Assembly (NCBI GenBank): GCA_026414665.1
Contig: JAOAIO010000001.1
Span: 37,242 to 101,241, forward strand
From: Azovibrio sp.
Lineage (GTDB): Bacteria > Pseudomonadota > Gammaproteobacteria > Burkholderiales > Rhodocyclaceae
DNA: 64,000 nucleotides
Direction of reading: 5' to 3'
The notes beneath the pieces were generated by a model. It worked only from the letters and a program-made list of their open reading frames with translations, did not search any database and was not told the origin of the DNA. Positions 48,606 to 59,161 of this stretch are shown here, in pieces. The translations under genes and the position numbers were made by a program. Numbering within the stretch: position 1 is the first letter of the stretch; every line of letters starts with the position of its first letter.

Positions 48606-50060
48606 CTATTTCTTCCAAAAGGCCGGCGTCAGCACCACGAGCAGGGTGAAGATTTCCAAACGGCCGAGCAGCATGGCGAAGGAGCAGACCCAGGTCTGGA
48701 AGTCGGTGAGGCTGGCGTAATTGCCAGCCGGGCCGACGCTGCCGAGGCCAGGGCCGGTATTGTTGAGCGAGGCGACGGCGGCGGAGAAGGCGGTGACGAT
48801 TTCCAGGCCGGAAAAGCTCAACACCAGGGTCAGGGTGACGAGGCTCACCATGTAGATGAAGCCGAAGGCGAGCACGGCAAAGAGCATGTTCTGGGGCACC
48901 GAGTGGCCGCCTAGCTTGACCGGATAGACGGCGTTGGGGTGCATGGCGCGCAGCAGCTCCCGGTACACCTGCTTGTAGAGCAGCACGGCGCGCATCATCT
49001 TGATGCCGCCGCCGGTCGAGCCGGAGCAGGAGACGAAGCTGCACAGAAACAGCATCCACAGGGGCGCGAAGAAGGGCCAAAGGCTGTAGTCGGTGGTGGC
49101 GAAACCGGCAGTGGTGGCGACGGAAATCACGTTGAAGGCGGCATAACGGAGAGCTTCGCTCGTATTCGGGAAGACCCGGAATTCCCACAGGTAAAAAGTG
49201 ATGAGCAGGATGCTGGCGAGCAGCACGCCGAGGAACCAAACGATTTCGGGGTCGCGTAGATAGGTGCGTAGGTCGCGCCCGGTGAGGGCGACATAGTGGG
49301 TGGCGAAGTTCATGCCGGCTACCAGCATGAAAAAAATGGCGATGCCTTCGATGCGCGGTGAATTCCAGTAGGCGAAACTGGCATCGTGGGTGGAGAAGCC
49401 ACCCAGGGCTACGGTAGAAAAAGCATGGCAGACGGCATCGAACCAGCTCATGCCGGCCCAGCGGTAGGCCAGGGCGCAGGCGCTGGTGATGCCGACATAG
49501 ACGAGCCACAGGCCCTTGGCGGTCTGGGCGATGCGCGGCGTGAGCTTGTTGTCCTTCATGGGGCTGGGGATTTCGGCTTTGAACATCTGCCGGCCGCCGA
49601 TGCCGAGCATGGGCAGAATCGCCACGGCCAGCACGATCAAGCCCATGCCGCCCAGCCAGATGATGAGATGGCGCCACAGGTTGATTGACTCGGGCAGGGT
49701 GTCGAGGCCGGTGAGCACGGTAGCGCCGGTGGCGGTGAGCCCCGATGTCGCCTCGAAATAGGCTTGGGTGAAGCCGATGTCGAGCTGCACGTAGAGCGGA
49801 ATGCTGGCGAACAAGGGGAGTACCGACCAGACCAATACGACGATCAGAAAGCCATCCCGCACCTGCAGTTCACGCCTGTGGTGGTGGGTCGACATCCAGA
49901 GCAGCAGGCCGCTGCCGAAGGTGGCGAGAAAGGCGAGATCGTAGGCTTCCTGGGCGCCATCGCCGACGGCGTGCGAGTGGATGAGCGGCACCAGCAAGGC
50001 CAGCGAGAACAGGGTGAGCACCCCGCCCAGCGCACGGAAGACGGGCAAGAAGCGCTGCAT
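48606..50060 (-). CDS. trkH: Trk potassium uptake membrane protein TrkH
   Basis: EATSGLTATGATVLTGLDTLPESINLWRHLIIWLGGMGLIVLAVAILPMLGIGG; FVSCSGSTGGGIKMMR. Confidence 0.95.
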   Translation of the reverse strand: MQRFLPVFRALGGVLTLFSLALLVPLIHSHAVGDGAQEAYDLAFLATFGSGLLLWMSTHHHRRELQVRDGFLIVVLVWSVLPLFASIPLYVQLDIGFTQAYFEATSGLTATGATVLTGLDTLPESINLWRHLIIWLGGMGLIVLAVAILPMLGIGGRQMFKAEIPSPMKDNKLTPRIAQTAKGLWLVYVGITSACALAYRWAGMSWFDAVCHAFSTVALGGFSTHDASFAYWNSPRIEGIAIFFMLVAGMNFATHYVALTGRDLRTYLRDPEIVWFLGVLLASILLITFYLWEFRVFPNTSEALRYAAFNVISVATTAGFATTDYSLWPFFAPLWMLFLCSFVSCSGSTGGGIKMMRAVLLYKQVYRELLRAMHPNAVYPVKLGGHSVPQNMLFAVLAFGFIYMVSLVTLTLVLSFSGLEIVTAFSAAVASLNNTGPGLGSVGPAGNYASLTDFQTWVCSFAMLLGRLEIFTLLVVLTPAFWKK

Positions 50061-50062
50061 GG

Positions 50063-51496
50063 TCAGAGGAAATGAAAACCGACCTGGAACAGTTGTTCGA
50101 CCTTACGCACCAATTTTTTTTGGACGCAGAACACGATGACGTGGTCGCCGCTTTGAATGACGGAATCGCCGTGCGCGATTTCGACCCGGCCAGAGCGCCG
50201 GTCCACGGTGCCGTCATCGCGCACCAGGACCGACTCGACGTGATCGAAATCGCGCACCAGCGCCGCCACGGTGACGCCCTTGGGCCAGGGGATGTCGGCG
50301 ATGCGCCGGCCGACTACCTTGGAGCTGTGCATATCGCCGTGCGCCACCAGTTCCAGGGCTTCGGCGGCGCCGCGGCGTAGGGAGTGCACGGCTGCCACGT
50401 CGCCGCGGCGCACATGCGCCAATAGCGTGCCGATCGAGACATGCGCCGGAGAGATGCCAATGTCGATGGGGCCGCCCTGCACCATGTCGGCGTAGGCGCG
50501 GCGGTTGATGAGCGCCACGACGCGCTTGCAGCCCATGCGCTTGGCGAGCGAGGCGGCCATGATGTTGTCCTCGTCGTCGTTGGTGAGCGCCAGGAACAAA
50601 TCCATCTCGGCGATGTTTTCCTGCTCCAAGAGCGCCTCGTCGGTAGCATCGCCGGACAGCACGAGCGCGTCCTTGAGCTTGCCGGCGATGTAGTCGGAGC
50701 GGCCCTTGCTGTGCTCGATGACCTTCACCTCGTAGCGTGCTTCCAAGGTGAGCGCCACCCGCAGGCCGATGTTGCCGCCGCCGGCGATCATGATGCGCCG
50801 TACCGGGTTCATCATGCGCCGCAGCTCCCTGAGCACCGGGCGGATGTGTTCGGCGGCAGCGAGCACGAAGACCTCGTCCCCGGGCTGGATGTGGGTCTCG
50901 CCGGTAGGAATGATGGGTTGGTCGCGCCGGTAGATGGCGGCGATGCGCGCCTCCATGCCGAACGGCAGGTGTTCCTTCATTTCCTTGATCGGCTTTCTGA
51001 CGAGCAGTCCGCCTTCGATGGCGCGCACGGCCACCAGCGACACCCGACCGCCGGCGAATTCGAGCACTTGCAGGGCTTCGGGGAATTCGATCAGACGCAC
51101 CACGTAGTCGGTAATGATCTGCTCTGGGCAGATGGCGAAATCGACGGCGAAATTGTCCGGGGCGAGCAGGCGCTCGTCTTCGAGAAAGTCGCGGGAACGC
51201 AGCCGGGCGATGCGGGTCGGCACGTTGAACAGGCTCTGGGCGATCTTGCAGGCCACGAGATTGGTCTGGTCGCTCTGGGTCACGGCGATCACCAGGTCGG
51301 CGTCCTCGGCGCCGGCGCTCTTGAGCACCGAGGGGTAGGCGGCGTTGCCGGTGACGGCGCGCAGATCGAGCCGGTCTTGCAGCGCCGCGAGGCGCTCGCC
51401 ATCGCTATCGACCATGGTGATGTCGTTTTCTTCCGACACCAAGCTTTCGGCCACGCTGGCGCCGACCTGGCCGGCGCCGAGGATGATGATCTTCAT
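50063..51496 (-). CDS. trkA: Trk potassium uptake regulatory protein TrkA
   Basis: MKIIILGAGQVGASVAESL; duplicated RCK_N/RCK_C pattern. Confidence 0.96.
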   Translation of the reverse strand: MKIIILGAGQVGASVAESLVSEENDITMVDSDGERLAALQDRLDLRAVTGNAAYPSVLKSAGAEDADLVIAVTQSDQTNLVACKIAQSLFNVPTRIARLRSRDFLEDERLLAPDNFAVDFAICPEQIITDYVVRLIEFPEALQVLEFAGGRVSLVAVRAIEGGLLVRKPIKEMKEHLPFGMEARIAAIYRRDQPIIPTGETHIQPGDEVFVLAAAEHIRPVLRELRRMMNPVRRIMIAGGGNIGLRVALTLEARYEVKVIEHSKGRSDYIAGKLKDALVLSGDATDEALLEQENIAEMDLFLALTNDDEDNIMAASLAKRMGCKRVVALINRRAYADMVQGGPIDIGISPAHVSIGTLLAHVRRGDVAAVHSLRRGAAEALELVAHGDMHSSKVVGRRIADIPWPKGVTVAALVRDFDHVESVLVRDDGTVDRRSGRVEIAHGDSVIQSGDHVIVFCVQKKLVRKVEQLFQVGFHFL

Positions 51497-52764
51497 GCGC
51501 CATTCTCCTCGCCCGAGCGCCGTCCGACGCCGAGTTGCTTGAGCTTGCGGTACAGGTGCGTGCGCTCTAAGCCGGAGCGCTCCGCCACCCGCGTCATGTT
51601 GCCGCCCTCGACCTTGAGCAGATATTCGAAGTAATGCCGCTCGAAGGCATCCCGGGCCTCGCGTAGCGGCTGCTCGAACAGCTCGCGCAGTCCTTCGGGC
51701 GCCATCGGACCCGCTGCCGTCGGGTCTTCAGGCAAGAGGCGCTGCACGTCGGCCTCGCTGATTTCTTCCTCCAAAGCGGTCAGGGCCAGATTGCGGATGA
51801 GTGCCTGCAAGTCGTTCCAGCCGGTCTCGGCCGACCACTTGCGCACGCGCAAGAGATTGAGCGCGGCGCTCGAAAAACGGCGCAGCGGCACTTCCTGGCG
51901 CTCTACCATCTGGGTCAGGAACAGACTGACGACTTCGGGAAGCTCGTCCGCATGTTGGCTAAGGTTGGGCAGCGCCAGCCAAACTTCGCCTAGACGCGCC
52001 AGCAGTTGCGCATCCCAGCCGCGGGCGGCGAGGCTGGCGAGCGGCTGCGCCATCGCGGCGACGATGAGGATGTTGTGCTTATGCACCCGCTCCAGCGCGA
52101 AAGCCAGGTTCATTTGTTGCAGCTTGCCGAGCGCCGCCAGGTCGCTCACATAGATCAGGCCGCCGGCGGTCTTTTGTAGCAGTTCCTGTGTCATCGGCGC
52201 GGCGCATGCGCGCAGATCGAGCCAGGGCGCATGTGGGCGTTGCAGGGTGCGCGCGCAGATTTCGGCGATGGCCCCGGTGCCGCCCTTGATGAGCAGCGCG
52301 CTGGTCTTGGCGGCGGCTTGTTCGAGGCGCTTCTTCAAGTCGCGGAACAAGGGGGCGTGCGCCAGGGCTTCGAGCGTGAGCGGCGGGCGCTGGCCGATGT
52401 GATCGTGCTTGAGCGCCTTCTTGACCGTAGACAAGAGCTTTTGCAGGGCGATCGGCTTTTCCAGAAAATCCACCGCGCCGATGCGGGTGGCTTCCACCGC
52501 GGTGTCGATGGTGCCGTGCCCGGACATCATCACGACCGGCATGGTCAGGAGGCCGGCCGCCGACCATTCTTTCAGCAGAGTGATGCCGTCCGTGTCGGGC
52601 ATCCAGATGTCGAGCAGCACCAGATCCGGCGCGCGCTCGCCGCGCATGCGGCGGGCCGCGGCGGCGTTCTCGGCCAGGCGGACGTCGTGGCCTTCGTCGG
52701 CCAAAATCTCCGAGAGGAGCTCGCGGATGCCGATTTCGTCGTCAACGACCAGAATCTCTGCCAT
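51493..52764 (-). CDS. ntrX: NtrX-like response regulator with degenerate AAA+ domain and Fis-type HTH
   Basis: Receiver MAEILVVDDEIGIRELLSEIL...LDIWMPDTDGI; C-terminal GGNMTRVAERSGLERTHLYRKLKQLGV; central domain lacks Walker A lysine and GAFTGA. Confidence 0.88.
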   Translation of the reverse strand: MAEILVVDDEIGIRELLSEILADEGHDVRLAENAAAARRMRGERAPDLVLLDIWMPDTDGITLLKEWSAAGLLTMPVVMMSGHGTIDTAVEATRIGAVDFLEKPIALQKLLSTVKKALKHDHIGQRPPLTLEALAHAPLFRDLKKRLEQAAAKTSALLIKGGTGAIAEICARTLQRPHAPWLDLRACAAPMTQELLQKTAGGLIYVSDLAALGKLQQMNLAFALERVHKHNILIVAAMAQPLASLAARGWDAQLLARLGEVWLALPNLSQHADELPEVVSLFLTQMVERQEVPLRRFSSAALNLLRVRKWSAETGWNDLQALIRNLALTALEEEISEADVQRLLPEDPTAAGPMAPEGLRELFEQPLREARDAFERHYFEYLLKVEGGNMTRVAERSGLERTHLYRKLKQLGVGRRSGEENGA

Positions 52765-54904
52765 GTCTTCCTTCCTTGTTGCCATCCTGCGCGAGCGGCA
52801 GGCGGATGCTGATGCAGGCCCCCCCTTCTGGGCGGTTGCCGATGTCGATGCTGCCTTGGTGCTCGTCTACGATTTTCTTGACGATGGGCAGTCCCAGCCC
52901 AGTGCCACGCGGCTTCGTGGTGATGTAGGGTTCGAACACGCGCGGCAGGATCTCGGCCGGGAAGCCCTTGCCGTTGTCGCAAATCTCCAGCAGGGCCTGG
53001 CCCGGCAGGGCCTCGGTGCGGATCGTGAGGCGCGGCGCGGCGATGCCTTCGAGCGCGTCCTGGCCGTTGCGTAGCAGGTTGTGGATCACCTGGCGAATCT
53101 GGTTGGCGTCGCCGAGCACCGGCGGCAGTTCCGCCGCGAGCTCGGGCGTGACCCGCACCTCGGAGTTTTCATAAAGGCCCAGCACTTCGCGGATGAGCGC
53201 GTTCAAATCCAGGGGCGCCAGCTCCGGCGCCGGGTGGCGCGAATAGTCGCGGAAATCGTCCACCATGCGCTTCATGGCCTGCACCTGGTTGATGATGGTC
53301 TGGGTGGAACGCGCCAGCATTTCCGCTTCCTTGCCCGTCAGATGGTCGGCGAGCTTCATTTGCAGGCGCTCGGCGGAGAGTTGGATGGGCGTGAGCGGGT
53401 TCTTGATCTCGTGCGCCAAGCGCCGGGCGACTTCGCCCCAGGCGGCGCTGCGCTGCGCGGCGATGAGCTGGGTCACGTCATCGAACACCACGACATGGCC
53501 GCCGCCGCTCGAATCAGGTAGACGGCTGCCGCGCAAGAGCAGCACCTGGGCGATGCAGCCCTCTTCCTCCAGTTCGAGCTGGCCCTGCCAGGCATCCGGG
53601 CCATCCGCGCCGAAGTGCTGGCGGATGAACTGGCCGAGTGCCGGATAACGCTCCCAGGCTTCGGTCGGCTGGCCGACCAGCGCCGCGAGGTCATCGCCGA
53701 GAATCGTCGTGGCGCCGGCATTGATGCTGCGCAGCGCGAAGTGGCGGTCGAATACCAAAACCCCGGCGGAAAGATTGGCGAGAATCGATTCGAGATAGGC
53801 CCGCGCCGCCTCGACCTCGCTCCGGTGCCGCTCCGCCTCGCGCCGCGCTTCGTCGAGCTGGCGCGTCATCTGGTTGAAGGACTGGGTCAGCACGCCCAGC
53901 TCGTCGCGGCTGTCGATGGCCTGGCGCGGCGAATAGTCGCCCTGCGCGACGGCCTGGGTGCCTTCGGCCAGGATGGAGAGGGGCGCCGAGAGGCGCCGCG
54001 CCATGAAGAAAGCCAGCGCAAAGGCGGAAAAGAGCGCCACGAGCACCGTCAAGGTCAGCGTGAGGGCATAGATTTGGGTCAAGCCTTGGCGCGCCAGCTG
54101 CAATTCTTGGTAGTCGCGGTACACCGCCTGCACATCCTCGGCATTGCGCGCCAGACTGGTTGGCACTGGCTGGGCGAGCTGCAAGACGCGCGGCTGCTCG
54201 AAGAAGGTGAGTGGCGCCACCGGCACCAAGACGCGCAAGAGCATGGCATCGCCTTCGCCTTCGATAGCGGTGACGGTGCGGTTGCTGCGCGCCTGCTTGA
54301 GCTCGGTTGGCGCCGGCAGCGGCGGCATGAGCTTACCCAATTCGGCATGGGCGCTGCCGACGAGCTGGCCGTTGGCGGCGAACAGCGCGACCGAATCCAC
54401 CCCGGCCTGCTCGCGTAGCCGGGCAAGCAGCAGGGCTTGCGCGTTTTCCGGGCGCTCTGCCAGTTCCGTAGCCATGTTGCGTGCCTTCTGGGCCAGCTCG
54501 CCCAGCAGTGAGTCGAGGGCCGAGCGACCGAGATTGAGGCCCGATTCCAGCGCCTTCTCGACGCGCACGTCGAACCAACTCTCGATCGAACGGGTCACGA
54601 ACTGCACCGAGACGCCATAGACCAAGGTGCCGGGCACCACGGCCACCAGGCCGAACATGAGCATCAAGCGCAGTTTCAGGCGCGAGCCAAACACTTGCGC
54701 GCGGTGCTCGCGCCAGAGCACATAGACCTGCCAGCCCACCAGGCCGAGCAGCACGGCCGCCACCAGCCCGTTCAAGCCGAGCAAGAGCGGATACTGGTTG
54801 GCGAAGATCATGGCGTCGGCCGAGGTGGACGCCAAGAGCAGGAACCAGAGGATGGCGCCGAGGGCGGCGCCGAGCGCGCCAGCGATGGCAAGTAGGCGCT
54901 TCAT
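52742..54904 (-). CDS. ntrY: NtrY-like membrane sensor histidine kinase
   Basis: N-terminal TMs, HAMP, PAS, RLAHEIKNPLTPIQLSAERLQ H-box, GKGFPAEILPRVFEPYITTKPRGTGLGLPIVKKI. Confidence 0.93.
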   Translation of the reverse strand: MKRLLAIAGALGAALGAILWFLLLASTSADAMIFANQYPLLLGLNGLVAAVLLGLVGWQVYVLWREHRAQVFGSRLKLRLMLMFGLVAVVPGTLVYGVSVQFVTRSIESWFDVRVEKALESGLNLGRSALDSLLGELAQKARNMATELAERPENAQALLLARLREQAGVDSVALFAANGQLVGSAHAELGKLMPPLPAPTELKQARSNRTVTAIEGEGDAMLLRVLVPVAPLTFFEQPRVLQLAQPVPTSLARNAEDVQAVYRDYQELQLARQGLTQIYALTLTLTVLVALFSAFALAFFMARRLSAPLSILAEGTQAVAQGDYSPRQAIDSRDELGVLTQSFNQMTRQLDEARREAERHRSEVEAARAYLESILANLSAGVLVFDRHFALRSINAGATTILGDDLAALVGQPTEAWERYPALGQFIRQHFGADGPDAWQGQLELEEEGCIAQVLLLRGSRLPDSSGGGHVVVFDDVTQLIAAQRSAAWGEVARRLAHEIKNPLTPIQLSAERLQMKLADHLTGKEAEMLARSTQTIINQVQAMKRMVDDFRDYSRHPAPELAPLDLNALIREVLGLYENSEVRVTPELAAELPPVLGDANQIRQVIHNLLRNGQDALEGIAAPRLTIRTEALPGQALLEICDNGKGFPAEILPRVFEPYITTKPRGTGLGLPIVKKIVDEHQGSIDIGNRPEGGACISIRLPLAQDGNKEGRHGRDSGR

Positions 54905-55527
54905 CGGCCTTCCTGGGCCGGCAAGACGGCCGGCGGCGGCGAGGTCTCCGGCTCGCTGGCTGGTACCACGAATTTCCAGCGCAGCCAGTCCGAGTTCAAA
55001 TTCCAGTCCCGATTCGCCAGCGCCGAGACCTGAAAGGGCTTGGGCAGCTGCGAGATGTCTAGGCGCAGACGCAAGGCCGCTTGATAACTGTCGCCGGGCC
55101 TTAGGGGGGTGTCGAGCACCGGCCAGCGGCGCACCCGCGAGAGCATTTGCAAGGCTTCTTCCAGGCTGGCGAAAGCTTGGTGCAGGCTGCCGGTGGATAA
55201 GCGGTATTGGCGCGTCAGGGCGTGGTAGCTCAAACGCCAGGTCTGGCTCTTGCTTGCCACTTTCTCGTCCATCCAGTACCAGCGGGGCCGCTCCAGCTCG
55301 AAGTCGAGCACGAAATACAGCGTGACCCCCTTGGTCACGGCTTCTTCCAGGCGGGGGTTGAAGTCGATGCGGAAATCGGCGGATAGCACATAACCCTCTT
55401 CGCTGGCTTGCAGCACGGGGTTGCGGATGTCGATGCTAGCGGCCCAGCCGAACGGGGCGCAGAGCATGAGGTAGATGGCCAAGAGCCAGGTGGCTAAGCC
55501 GTCAGACCAGTTTTTGCAAAAGCGCAT
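54901..55527 (-). CDS. DUF4390 family protein
   Basis: Between rsmB and ntrY; ADFRIDFNPRLEEAVTKGVTLYFVLDFELERPRWYWMDE. Confidence 0.85.
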   Translation of the reverse strand: MRFCKNWSDGLATWLLAIYLMLCAPFGWAASIDIRNPVLQASEEGYVLSADFRIDFNPRLEEAVTKGVTLYFVLDFELERPRWYWMDEKVASKSQTWRLSYHALTRQYRLSTGSLHQAFASLEEALQMLSRVRRWPVLDTPLRPGDSYQAALRLRLDISQLPKPFQVSALANRDWNLNSDWLRWKFVVPASEPETSPPPAVLPAQEGR

Positions 55528-56764
55528 AATAAAAGCCGTCGTGTTCCGCGCCGGGTAGCCAGCGTTCCTCGTCGACCAGGCGGGCATCCGCAGTGCGGGC
55601 CAGGAAGTGGGCTACTTGCTCGCCGTTCTCCTCGGGAAATACCGAGCAAGTAGCATAAAGCAATTTGCCCCCAGGCCGCAGCGCCGACCATAGGCGCGCG
55701 AGAATGCGCCGCTGGGTGTGCGCAAAGCGCAGGATGTCCTGGGGTTGGCGCAGCCATTTTGCATCTGGATGACGGCGCACCACGCCGCTCGCCGAGCAGG
55801 GTACGTCGGCGAGGATGGCATCGAAGGCGGTCGGTTGCCGGCCCCAGGCCCGGGGGGCGCTGGCGTCGCCGCAGCGTACCCGGGCGGTGAGCCCGAGACG
55901 CGTAAGATTGTGTTCGATCTGGCGGCAGCGGTCCGGGTCGATGTCGAGCGCGGTCAGCGCCAAGTCGGCGCGTTCGAGCAGGTGCGCGGTCTTGCCGCCC
56001 GGCGCGGCGCAGGCGTCGAGCACGTGGCTGCCCGGCGCGGGGTCGAGCAGCTCGGCGGCGCGCTGCGCGCCCAGGTCTTGAACCGAGACCCAGCCTTCGG
56101 TAAAGCCGGGGAGCTGGTTGACGGGCACTGGACGCACGAGGCGAATGCCGGCTGTGCCCACGGCGCGGCCGGCGATGCCAGCAGCTTCGAGTCGGGATAG
56201 ATAGTCGGCGCGGCTAAGCTTACGCAGGTTCACGCGCAGGCTCATGGGGGGCGCGGCGTTGCCGGCGGCGACGATGTCCTGCCAAGCATCCGGGTAGGCG
56301 TGCTTGAGCTTTTCCAGCCACCAGGCCGGATGCCAGAGGCGCGCGGCTTCGTCCAGGACGGGGCAGAGCGCCTCGTCCTGGCGCAGATAATTGCGCAGCA
56401 CCCCATTGACGAGTCCCTTGTAACGCCCGCCTTCGAGCTGGCCGGCGGCCTCCACCGCCTGGTCGACTACCGTGTGTGGCGCATCCGTCCAAGTGGCGAG
56501 CCGGTAGAGCGCGGCCAGCAGCAAGGCGCGGATGGTCGGCTGAGGCGGATGGCGCAAGAATGGGGCGAGGCGGGCATCGCCTTCGCCATGCCGGCGCAAG
56601 GTGCCATAGACGATATCCTGCACCGCTGGCCGGGCCGTGGCCGGCACGGCCTCCAAGGCGCCAGCGGCGAGGCTGGCGCCTGCCATGACCCCGGCGATGA
56701 CGGGCGCGGCATGGGCAAGGGCGAAGGCCAGGGAGTCCGGGGGCAGACGGGGCGGCACGGGCAT
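55502..56764 (-). CDS. rsmB: 16S rRNA (cytosine-967-C5)-methyltransferase RsmB
   Basis: VLDACAAPGGKTAHLLE, ILADVPCSASGVVRRHPDAKW. Confidence 0.95.
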   Translation of the reverse strand: MPVPPRLPPDSLAFALAHAAPVIAGVMAGASLAAGALEAVPATARPAVQDIVYGTLRRHGEGDARLAPFLRHPPQPTIRALLLAALYRLATWTDAPHTVVDQAVEAAGQLEGGRYKGLVNGVLRNYLRQDEALCPVLDEAARLWHPAWWLEKLKHAYPDAWQDIVAAGNAAPPMSLRVNLRKLSRADYLSRLEAAGIAGRAVGTAGIRLVRPVPVNQLPGFTEGWVSVQDLGAQRAAELLDPAPGSHVLDACAAPGGKTAHLLERADLALTALDIDPDRCRQIEHNLTRLGLTARVRCGDASAPRAWGRQPTAFDAILADVPCSASGVVRRHPDAKWLRQPQDILRFAHTQRRILARLWSALRPGGKLLYATCSVFPEENGEQVAHFLARTADARLVDEERWLPGAEHDGFYYALLQKLV

Positions 56765-57859: not shown

Positions 57860-59161
57860 ATGCAAAGCTTTCAGCAGCGTTACGAAATTCTCCGCGAACT
57901 CGGCCGTGGCGCTTCCGGCAGTGTCTATCTGGCGCAGGATTTATTCGCCGATCAGCAAGTCGCCTTGAAAATCGCTCATCCCCAGATCTTTGCCGGCGAC
58001 GATCCCGAGCAAAAAGCCATCCGCAAGGCTTGGCTCAATGAAGTGCGTCTGGCCGGCCGTCTGCGGCACCCTTACATCGTCGAAGTGTTCGATGCCGGCA
58101 TGGGCGATGCCACCGCCTATCTGGCGATGGAATACCTGCCCGGCGGCACGCTCGAGCCCTATACCCGTCCGGGCCAGCTCAAGCCCGTGCGCGAGGTGCT
58201 GGAAATCGCCTACAAATGCGCCAGCGCGCTCGATTACGCCTGCCGCGCCGGCATCGTGCACCGCGACATCAAGCCGGCCAACTTGCAATACGCCGGGCCG
58301 GGCGAGGTCAAGATCGGCGACTTCGGCGCCGCGTACTGGGGCCGCAGCGATTCCACCCAGGTCATGGACATCGGCTCCCTGTCCTACATGGCGCCGGAAT
58401 TGTTCCGGCATTGGGTGACGCCGCAGGCCGACATTTACGCCCTGGGTGTGGTGCTGTTCCAGCTGCTTACCGGGCAGCTACCTTTCGTTGCCGACTCGCC
58501 GGCGGCGTTGATGTACAAGATTCTCAACGGCGAGCGGCCACGGCTTAGTGATCTGCGCCCGGACTTGCCGTCCGGTCTCGACGCCTTGGTCGAGGAAATG
58601 CTGGCGGTGAGCCTGGAGCGGCGCTTTGCCGCGTGGCCCTTGGTGCTCGCCGCGCTCACGGCGCTCATGCCGGACACGGCTGGCAATGCCGGCGAGCCGC
58701 CGGCAGCGGCGGAGCTGTTCGAGCGGCTGCGCCGCTTACCCTTGCTGCAAGAATTGGCCGATCCGCAGCTGTGGGAATTGCTGCGCTTTGCCCACTGGCG
58801 CCGCGCTCCGGCGGGCACCGTGTTGATTCAAGAAGGCGCGGCGGCGCGCTCGTGCTACTTGCTGCTCGAAGGCGAGACGCGGGTGACGCAGCGCGGCCGC
58901 CTCATCAACTTGCTCACCGCCGGCACCTTGTTCGGCGAGCTTGCCTTCGCCGAGGCCGTGCCCAGCCCACGTGCCGCGACCGTCACCGCCATGACACCGG
59001 TGCTCTATGGCAAGTGGGCGTATAGCCGTCTCAACCGGGCTTCGCCGGAGCTGCGCTCGGGGATGTTGAAGATTTTCTTTCGCCTTGCTGCCGAGCGTTT
59101 GAAGCAGGCGGATGAGCAATACCAACTGCTGTACCGGCGTCTCCAGGCGGCGCCGGGCTGA
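57860..59161 (+). CDS. Ser/Thr protein kinase with C-terminal cyclic-nucleotide-binding domain
   Basis: VALKIAHP, IVHRDIKPANLQY, IGDFGAAYW kinase motifs; CNB phosphate-binding cassette LFGELAFAEAVPSPRAATVTA. Confidence 0.92.
   Translation: MQSFQQRYEILRELGRGASGSVYLAQDLFADQQVALKIAHPQIFAGDDPEQKAIRKAWLNEVRLAGRLRHPYIVEVFDAGMGDATAYLAMEYLPGGTLEPYTRPGQLKPVREVLEIAYKCASALDYACRAGIVHRDIKPANLQYAGPGEVKIGDFGAAYWGRSDSTQVMDIGSLSYMAPELFRHWVTPQADIYALGVVLFQLLTGQLPFVADSPAALMYKILNGERPRLSDLRPDLPSGLDALVEEMLAVSLERRFAAWPLVLAALTALMPDTAGNAGEPPAAAELFERLRRLPLLQELADPQLWELLRFAHWRRAPAGTVLIQEGAAARSCYLLLEGETRVTQRGRLINLLTAGTLFGELAFAEAVPSPRAATVTAMTPVLYGKWAYSRLNRASPELRSGMLKIFFRLAAERLKQADEQYQLLYRRLQAAPG

Follow-up and report, generated by a model that had tools for sequence, protein, structure and literature searches.

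The best full-length relative in the PDB of the response regulator described here is NtrX from Brucella abortus (PDB 5m7n, 5m7o, 5m7p), which has the same order of domains—receiver, AAA+ domain, Fis-type helix-turn-helix (HTH)—and is also without a GAFTGA motif. Brucella NtrX, crystallised with ATP and ADP, keeps the P-loop lysine, the Walker B DE and the arginine fingers, whereas the protein in our window (the whole 64-kb stretch of Azovibrio sp. DNA that was analysed) has no such lysine, Walker B aspartate or first arginine finger, in a domain that is ∼30 residues shorter. In gene neighbourhood, the window protein shares its cluster with Bordetella PlrR and betaproteobacterial NtrX (PMC13001219). 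The Bordetella cluster runs rsmB-plrP-plrS-plrR-trkA-trkH; the function of plrP was shown there genetically, PlrP keeps PlrS phosphatase activity in check, and phosphorylated PlrR (PlrR~P) is reported to be essential (PMC13001219). In Azoarcus olearius, a close relative, Tn-Seq marks ntrX as putatively essential (PMC9769520), and a review mentions four classes of NtrX (PMC12697260).

The Bordetella paper, on the authority of Bonato 2016, states that the AAA+ domain is missing from betaproteobacterial NtrX (PMC13001219). The window protein, in contrast, retains a degenerate AAA+ domain that is predicted to be folded, and the published description is too coarse. Regulation without GAFTGA is known for the NtrC proteins of Caulobacter and Rhodobacter and for Vibrio VspR, reported to act at σ70 promoters (PMC10274813). 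ATP binding is required by R. capsulatus NtrC, and Caulobacter NtrC reportedly requires hydrolysis as well as binding, whereas the P-loop lysine is gone from the window protein.

Results

The gene, its domains and its locus

The ntrX gene (51493..52785, minus strand, as are all features of the cluster given below) is by open reading frame and translation a 430-aa response regulator, for which Met8 at 52764 is the likelier start, giving 423 aa. Its receiver domain (52408..52761, residues 9-126; Pfam PF00072, E 6.6e-28) carries a phospho-site—D8, D9, D52, S81 and K103, numbered from Met8—that is invariant among 80 orthologues. The central α/β core, here called pseudo-AAA+ (51955..52368, residues 140-277; PF14532, Sigma54_activ_2, E 2.2e-20), matches the AAA+ domain of Brucella NtrX by profile (hhalign 99.8%), and PF14532 is matched in 80/80 orthologues. 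It is followed by a remnant of the AAA+ lid (51721..51954, residues 278-355), to which PF25601 (AAA_lid_14) matches weakly (E 0.0097), the same model being found in 71/80 orthologues. The Fis-type dimerisation/HTH region (51523..51690, residues 366-421; PF02954, HTH_8, E 3.6e-08) is invariant or nearly so across orthologues, and its recognition helix, GLERTHLYRKLKQLG, is a motif common to orthologues without the AAA+ domain. The first-pass annotation had called the receiver and the HTH intact, which the two Pfam matches and the invariant phospho-site bear out. The protein can be aligned with Brucella NtrX over its whole length, including the Fis-type HTH, and its best NCBIfam model is NtrX, at 227.9 bits against a cut-off of 600, which is below the equivalog threshold. 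Since this shortfall fits the altered central domain, we file the protein as a diverged NtrX branch and not as an equivalog of the model: ORF 51493-52785 is the NtrX of the NtrYX/PlrPSR system, named plrR in Bordetella.

The cluster is ordered rsmB-plrP(DUF4390)-ntrY-ntrX-trkA-trkH. The gene of the cognate sensor kinase, ntrY (52742..54904; Pfam NtrY_N, HAMP, PAS, HisKA and HATPase), adjoins ntrX in nearly all loci read. Next to it lies the plrP homologue (54901..55587; DUF4390, PF14334, Pfam E 1.6e-59), whose product is a predicted periplasmic third component, and then rsmB (55502..56764; 16S rRNA m5C methyltransferase by Pfam), a conserved upstream neighbour by synteny; the position of rsmB and the DUF4390 gene 5' of ntrYX is conserved in relatives. 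On the other side, Pfam identifies trkA (50063-51496) and trkH (48606-50060) downstream of ntrX, and trkA and the ntrX stop share a 4-base overlap, an arrangement likewise described for plrR and trkA in Bordetella (PMC13001219). A DUF4390 (plrP-type) gene was found in nearly all betaproteobacterial loci read. Elsewhere in the window, positions 57860-59161 (plus strand) encode a fusion of a Ser/Thr protein kinase domain and, at the C-terminus, a cyclic-nucleotide-binding domain. The published NtrX site GCAn9TGC occurs 60 times in the 64-kb window, which is too frequent to be informative.

Degenerate motifs in the AAA+ domain

At positions 52130-52290 (residues ∼166-219), the first-pass annotation had reported a Walker A without its lysine, a missing GAFTGA-bearing stretch and an altered Walker B, and all three hold, with the peptides where it had put them (KGGTGAIAE at residues 167-175, GGLIYVSDL at 208-216). 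The former Walker A, GGTGAIAE (52261..52284), keeps Gly4 and Glu8 and has Ala174 at the position of the P-loop lysine. The segment expected to hold ELFG and the L1 loop (52162..52257) falls ∼20 residues short of its length in Brucella or gammaproteobacterial NtrX, with the ELFG/L1 stretch wholly gone. In the former Walker B, GGLIYVSDL (52138..52164), the Asp position is Ser214 and the Glu position is Asp215 and still acidic, while the first arginine-finger position (52012..52014) is now Asp258; the sensor II arginine has also been lost. A PF00158 search of the whole genome gave no match to the ntrX gene and returned six proteins with intact GxxGxGKE, GAFTGA and LDE. Of the hallmarks of a bEBP, the ntrX protein has no Walker A GxxGxGK, GAFTGA loop, Walker B DE or first arginine finger, and it has the AAA+ fold by prediction only.

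Spread across Betaproteobacteria

A search of 61 genomes, our own and 60 relatives, gave a match to the ntrX protein in every one, mostly at 66-92% identity for members of the genus, with a fragment match only in one incomplete genus member. In a survey of 150 genomes of the order, 143 had a match at E ≤ 1e-40, divided into 107 with the full-length form (part of them assigned from alignment length, the others read individually) and 36 in which just the receiver and the HTH are present. Motifs were counted in 148 distinct full-length forms, taken from the order genomes and from named genome records, in which (i) the P-loop lysine is present in none, and P-loop position 8 is acidic (Glu/Asp) in 146; (ii) ELFG is missing in 148/148; (iii) the Walker B aspartate is lost, and the Glu position is acidic in 141; (iv) the position of the first arginine finger holds an acid in 145 (Asp in 116, Glu in 29); and (v) the P-loop Lys and Walker B Asp positions lie 40 or 42 residues apart in 146, compared to 60-61 in Brucella and most gammaproteobacterial NtrX. 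The degenerate domain is shared by ∼40 families, which are most of the betaproteobacterial families sampled, and is carried by relatives in Azoarcus and Aromatoleum. The alignment across Betaproteobacteria that had been proposed as a check on the motif loss finds it uniform. A sequencing error or frameshift, earlier deemed unlikely given the intact frame, is ruled out, since nearly every relative searched has a syntenic orthologue that is open and carries these changes too.

Loss of rpoN can be rejected as the cause: rpoN is present in the genome studied here and in 141/150 order genomes, and the genomes without it include both forms of NtrX. The losses of the domain are mostly found in genomes that keep rpoN. 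In one family (f183), three genomes (G219, G263, G304) have neither rpoN nor an NtrX match at E ≤ 1e-40, unlike other rpoN-less genomes, which keep NtrX.

Order of the losses

Canonical NtrX had been said to carry GAFTGA, which proved wrong: the motif is absent from Brucella NtrX and from all 28 gammaproteobacterial NtrX proteins examined, and Caulobacter NtrX is reported to be without it (PMC10274813). This absence suggests that σ54 contact was lost early in NtrX, so that σ54 independence would be older than the lineage studied here. Among the same gammaproteobacterial proteins, the P-loop lysine is retained in 23/28 and the first arginine finger is Arg in 23/28; loss of the ATP site came later, as the new step in the betaproteobacterial branch. 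Some gammaproteobacterial NtrX proteins erode on their own. That of gammaproteobacterium G168 (L249) has a degenerate P-loop, GTPSSGAS, with the lysine lost, and no rsmB, plrP or ntrY is detectable within 6 kb of it; that of gammaproteobacterium G118 (L255) is a 298-aa protein in which the AAA+ α/β core is deleted and the lid kept, an intermediate not seen among the betaproteobacteria read.

Repeated loss of the whole domain

In ten families, NtrX consists of receiver and HTH only, and in the loci read these AAA-less forms keep their synteny with NtrY, PlrP and RsmB. The receiver-HTH spacing has a median of 237 residues with the domain and of 44.5 without it, and the AAA-less linker is a low-complexity stretch of 25-77 residues. 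RegA/PrrA/ActR are built like these forms, from a receiver and a Fis-type HTH, but they belong to a different family with a different kinase and have no pseudo-AAA domain. A 56-row tree of NtrY requires three changes to account for the AAA-less forms, all three forced by starred branches, and a single ancient deletion behind all of them is rejected by this tree (p 1e-15) and by a tree of RsmB (p 0.012). The RsmB tree asks for a fourth change at row L064, which was left out of the loss count. Since the gammaproteobacterial outgroup has the domain, the AAA-less forms are losses, and the trees place the loss of the whole AAA+ domain at no fewer than three separate events.

Selection on the remnant and its predicted fold

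In 34 disjoint close pairs, with whole-gene dS as denominator and a simple counting method, median dN/dS was 0.043 (receiver), 0.122 (pseudo-AAA), 0.106 (lid) and 0.054 (HTH), and it exceeded 0.25 for the pseudo-AAA in 0/34 pairs. The pseudo-AAA+ remnant is under purifying selection, and it has Gly, Gln, Pro and Trp columns that are invariant across order-level distances. AlphaFold, run with 80 orthologues, gave a mean pLDDT of 92 for the whole protein, and for isolated residues 131-358 a pLDDT of 95 and a pTM of 0.90, high scores that are no proof of stability, since a domain's ancestry can be enough for AlphaFold to fold it. Foldseek gave, at query-normalised TM scores of 0.5-0.7, matches to AAA+ domains of σ54 activators, to VpsR and to Brucella NtrX, and with the isolated domain it placed VpsR on top, barely better than NtrC1. 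A domain profile search of the PDB returned first 3co5, a solved structure with the same kind of degeneration (Walker A GEAGSPFE, Walker B GGVLYVGDI), which we take to be Neisseria gonorrhoeae NtrX; unlike the full-length window protein, it is an isolated 143-aa central domain of a putative response regulator. "Dismantled", the word used for the domain at first pass, is too strong for a domain that is selected (dN/dS 0.12), keeps its predicted fold and occurs in ∼40 families.

Discussion

We consider it probable that ntrX encodes a phosphorylation-controlled DNA-binding regulator of the NtrX/PlrR branch that would work independently of ATP and σ54, with the pseudo-AAA+ domain as a structural coupler. 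We favour σ54 independence because the residues that bind and hydrolyse ATP and those that touch σ54 are gone, the phospho-site and the HTH are kept, and ten families have receiver and HTH only; a domain that is dead in the same way in most families sampled and was deleted at least three times makes a regulator without ATP and σ54 the most likely one. The first-pass annotation had arrived at a σ54-independent DNA-binding regulator, and this is still the best-supported reading, although its GAFTGA baseline was wrong and the domain is more than wreckage. In such a regulator, NtrY would phosphorylate receiver Asp52, phosphorylated NtrX would pair through the receiver and the Fis-type helices, and the HTH would bind DNA, probably at ordinary σ70-type promoters, as activator or repressor. 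The pseudo-AAA+ domain, with AAA+ fold and lid presumably kept, should be incapable of the usual ATP binding and hydrolysis or of a push on σ54, and its role is most likely structural, in setting the distance and orientation between receiver and HTH and in helping the pairing. A flexible linker could take over this structural job, which would explain outright deletion on at least three occasions. The sequences themselves show the motif loss, the conservation, the predicted fold, the synteny and the repeated deletion; from these we infer no ATPase, no σ54 contact, a structural role and σ70-type promoters. The acidic Walker B Glu position (141/148) and the P-loop Glu8 (146/148) would still allow some unusual binding of a nucleotide or metal, and the retention of the domain in ∼40 families, though it can be deleted, suggests that it does more than hold distance.

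Another reading is a new regulatory function of the domain, the binding of a small molecule or a partner protein with the acid at the old arginine finger as part of the site, which we regard as possible but unlikely. The Asp or Glu at that finger in 145/148 forms, the acidic Walker B position, the purifying selection on the pseudo-AAA and the top Foldseek rank of VpsR for the isolated domain would suit such a function, the atypical enhancer-binding proteins VpsR and FleQ being binders of c-di-GMP. Yet the VpsR match stems from the AAA+ fold common to both and hardly surpasses that of NtrC1, and ten families do without the domain altogether. We are rather doubtful of its fullest version, in which the domain was re-purposed as a ligand or partner sensor, with the old arginine finger now a conserved acidic contact, and would give an essential regulator a second input besides phosphorylation.

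We find it improbable that the domain is a decaying remnant headed for loss that has survived so far only because an in-frame event is required to delete it. Decay would accommodate a pseudo-AAA that evolves ∼3× faster than the receiver, the graded series from the canonical form to one without GAFTGA, one without the ATP site and finally deletion, and the complete losses, at least three in number; it is at odds with a median dN/dS of 0.12 that passes 0.25 in none of the 34 pairs, with orthologues that, as read, are open through the domain, and with the invariant Gly, Gln, Pro and Trp columns at order-level distances. A protein that is still an ATP-dependent σ54 activator, by a changed mechanism, is very improbable: it could appeal to the Pfam name "Sigma-54 interaction domain", matched in 80/80 orthologues, and to the rpoN in the genome, but the betaproteobacterial forms read lack both the P-loop lysine and GAFTGA and hardly ever have an arginine finger, AAA-less orthologues occupy the same locus context, and Caulobacter NtrC without GAFTGA acts on σ70 promoters (PMC10274813).

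That the central domain of betaproteobacterial NtrX differs is already known from the Bordetella paper (PMC13001219, citing Bonato 2016), and a structure of a degenerate domain exists. We did not find stated in the literature that most betaproteobacterial families sampled have a constrained AAA+ domain without an ATP site, that a conserved acid stands in place of its arginine finger or that the domain was repeatedly lost in full, although priority is uncertain.

The regulator with a phosphorylation-controlled HTH and a structural pseudo-AAA+ would, in most families sampled, be neither a working σ54 activator nor a simple receiver-HTH protein, which corrects both the database label "sigma-54 interaction domain" for this domain and the published view that betaproteobacterial NtrX has no AAA+ domain. 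One gene at one locus offers a natural series, from an ATP site without GAFTGA, through no ATP site, to no domain, the last reached several times independently, and with this series one can ask what an AAA+ domain gives a response regulator besides σ54 activation.
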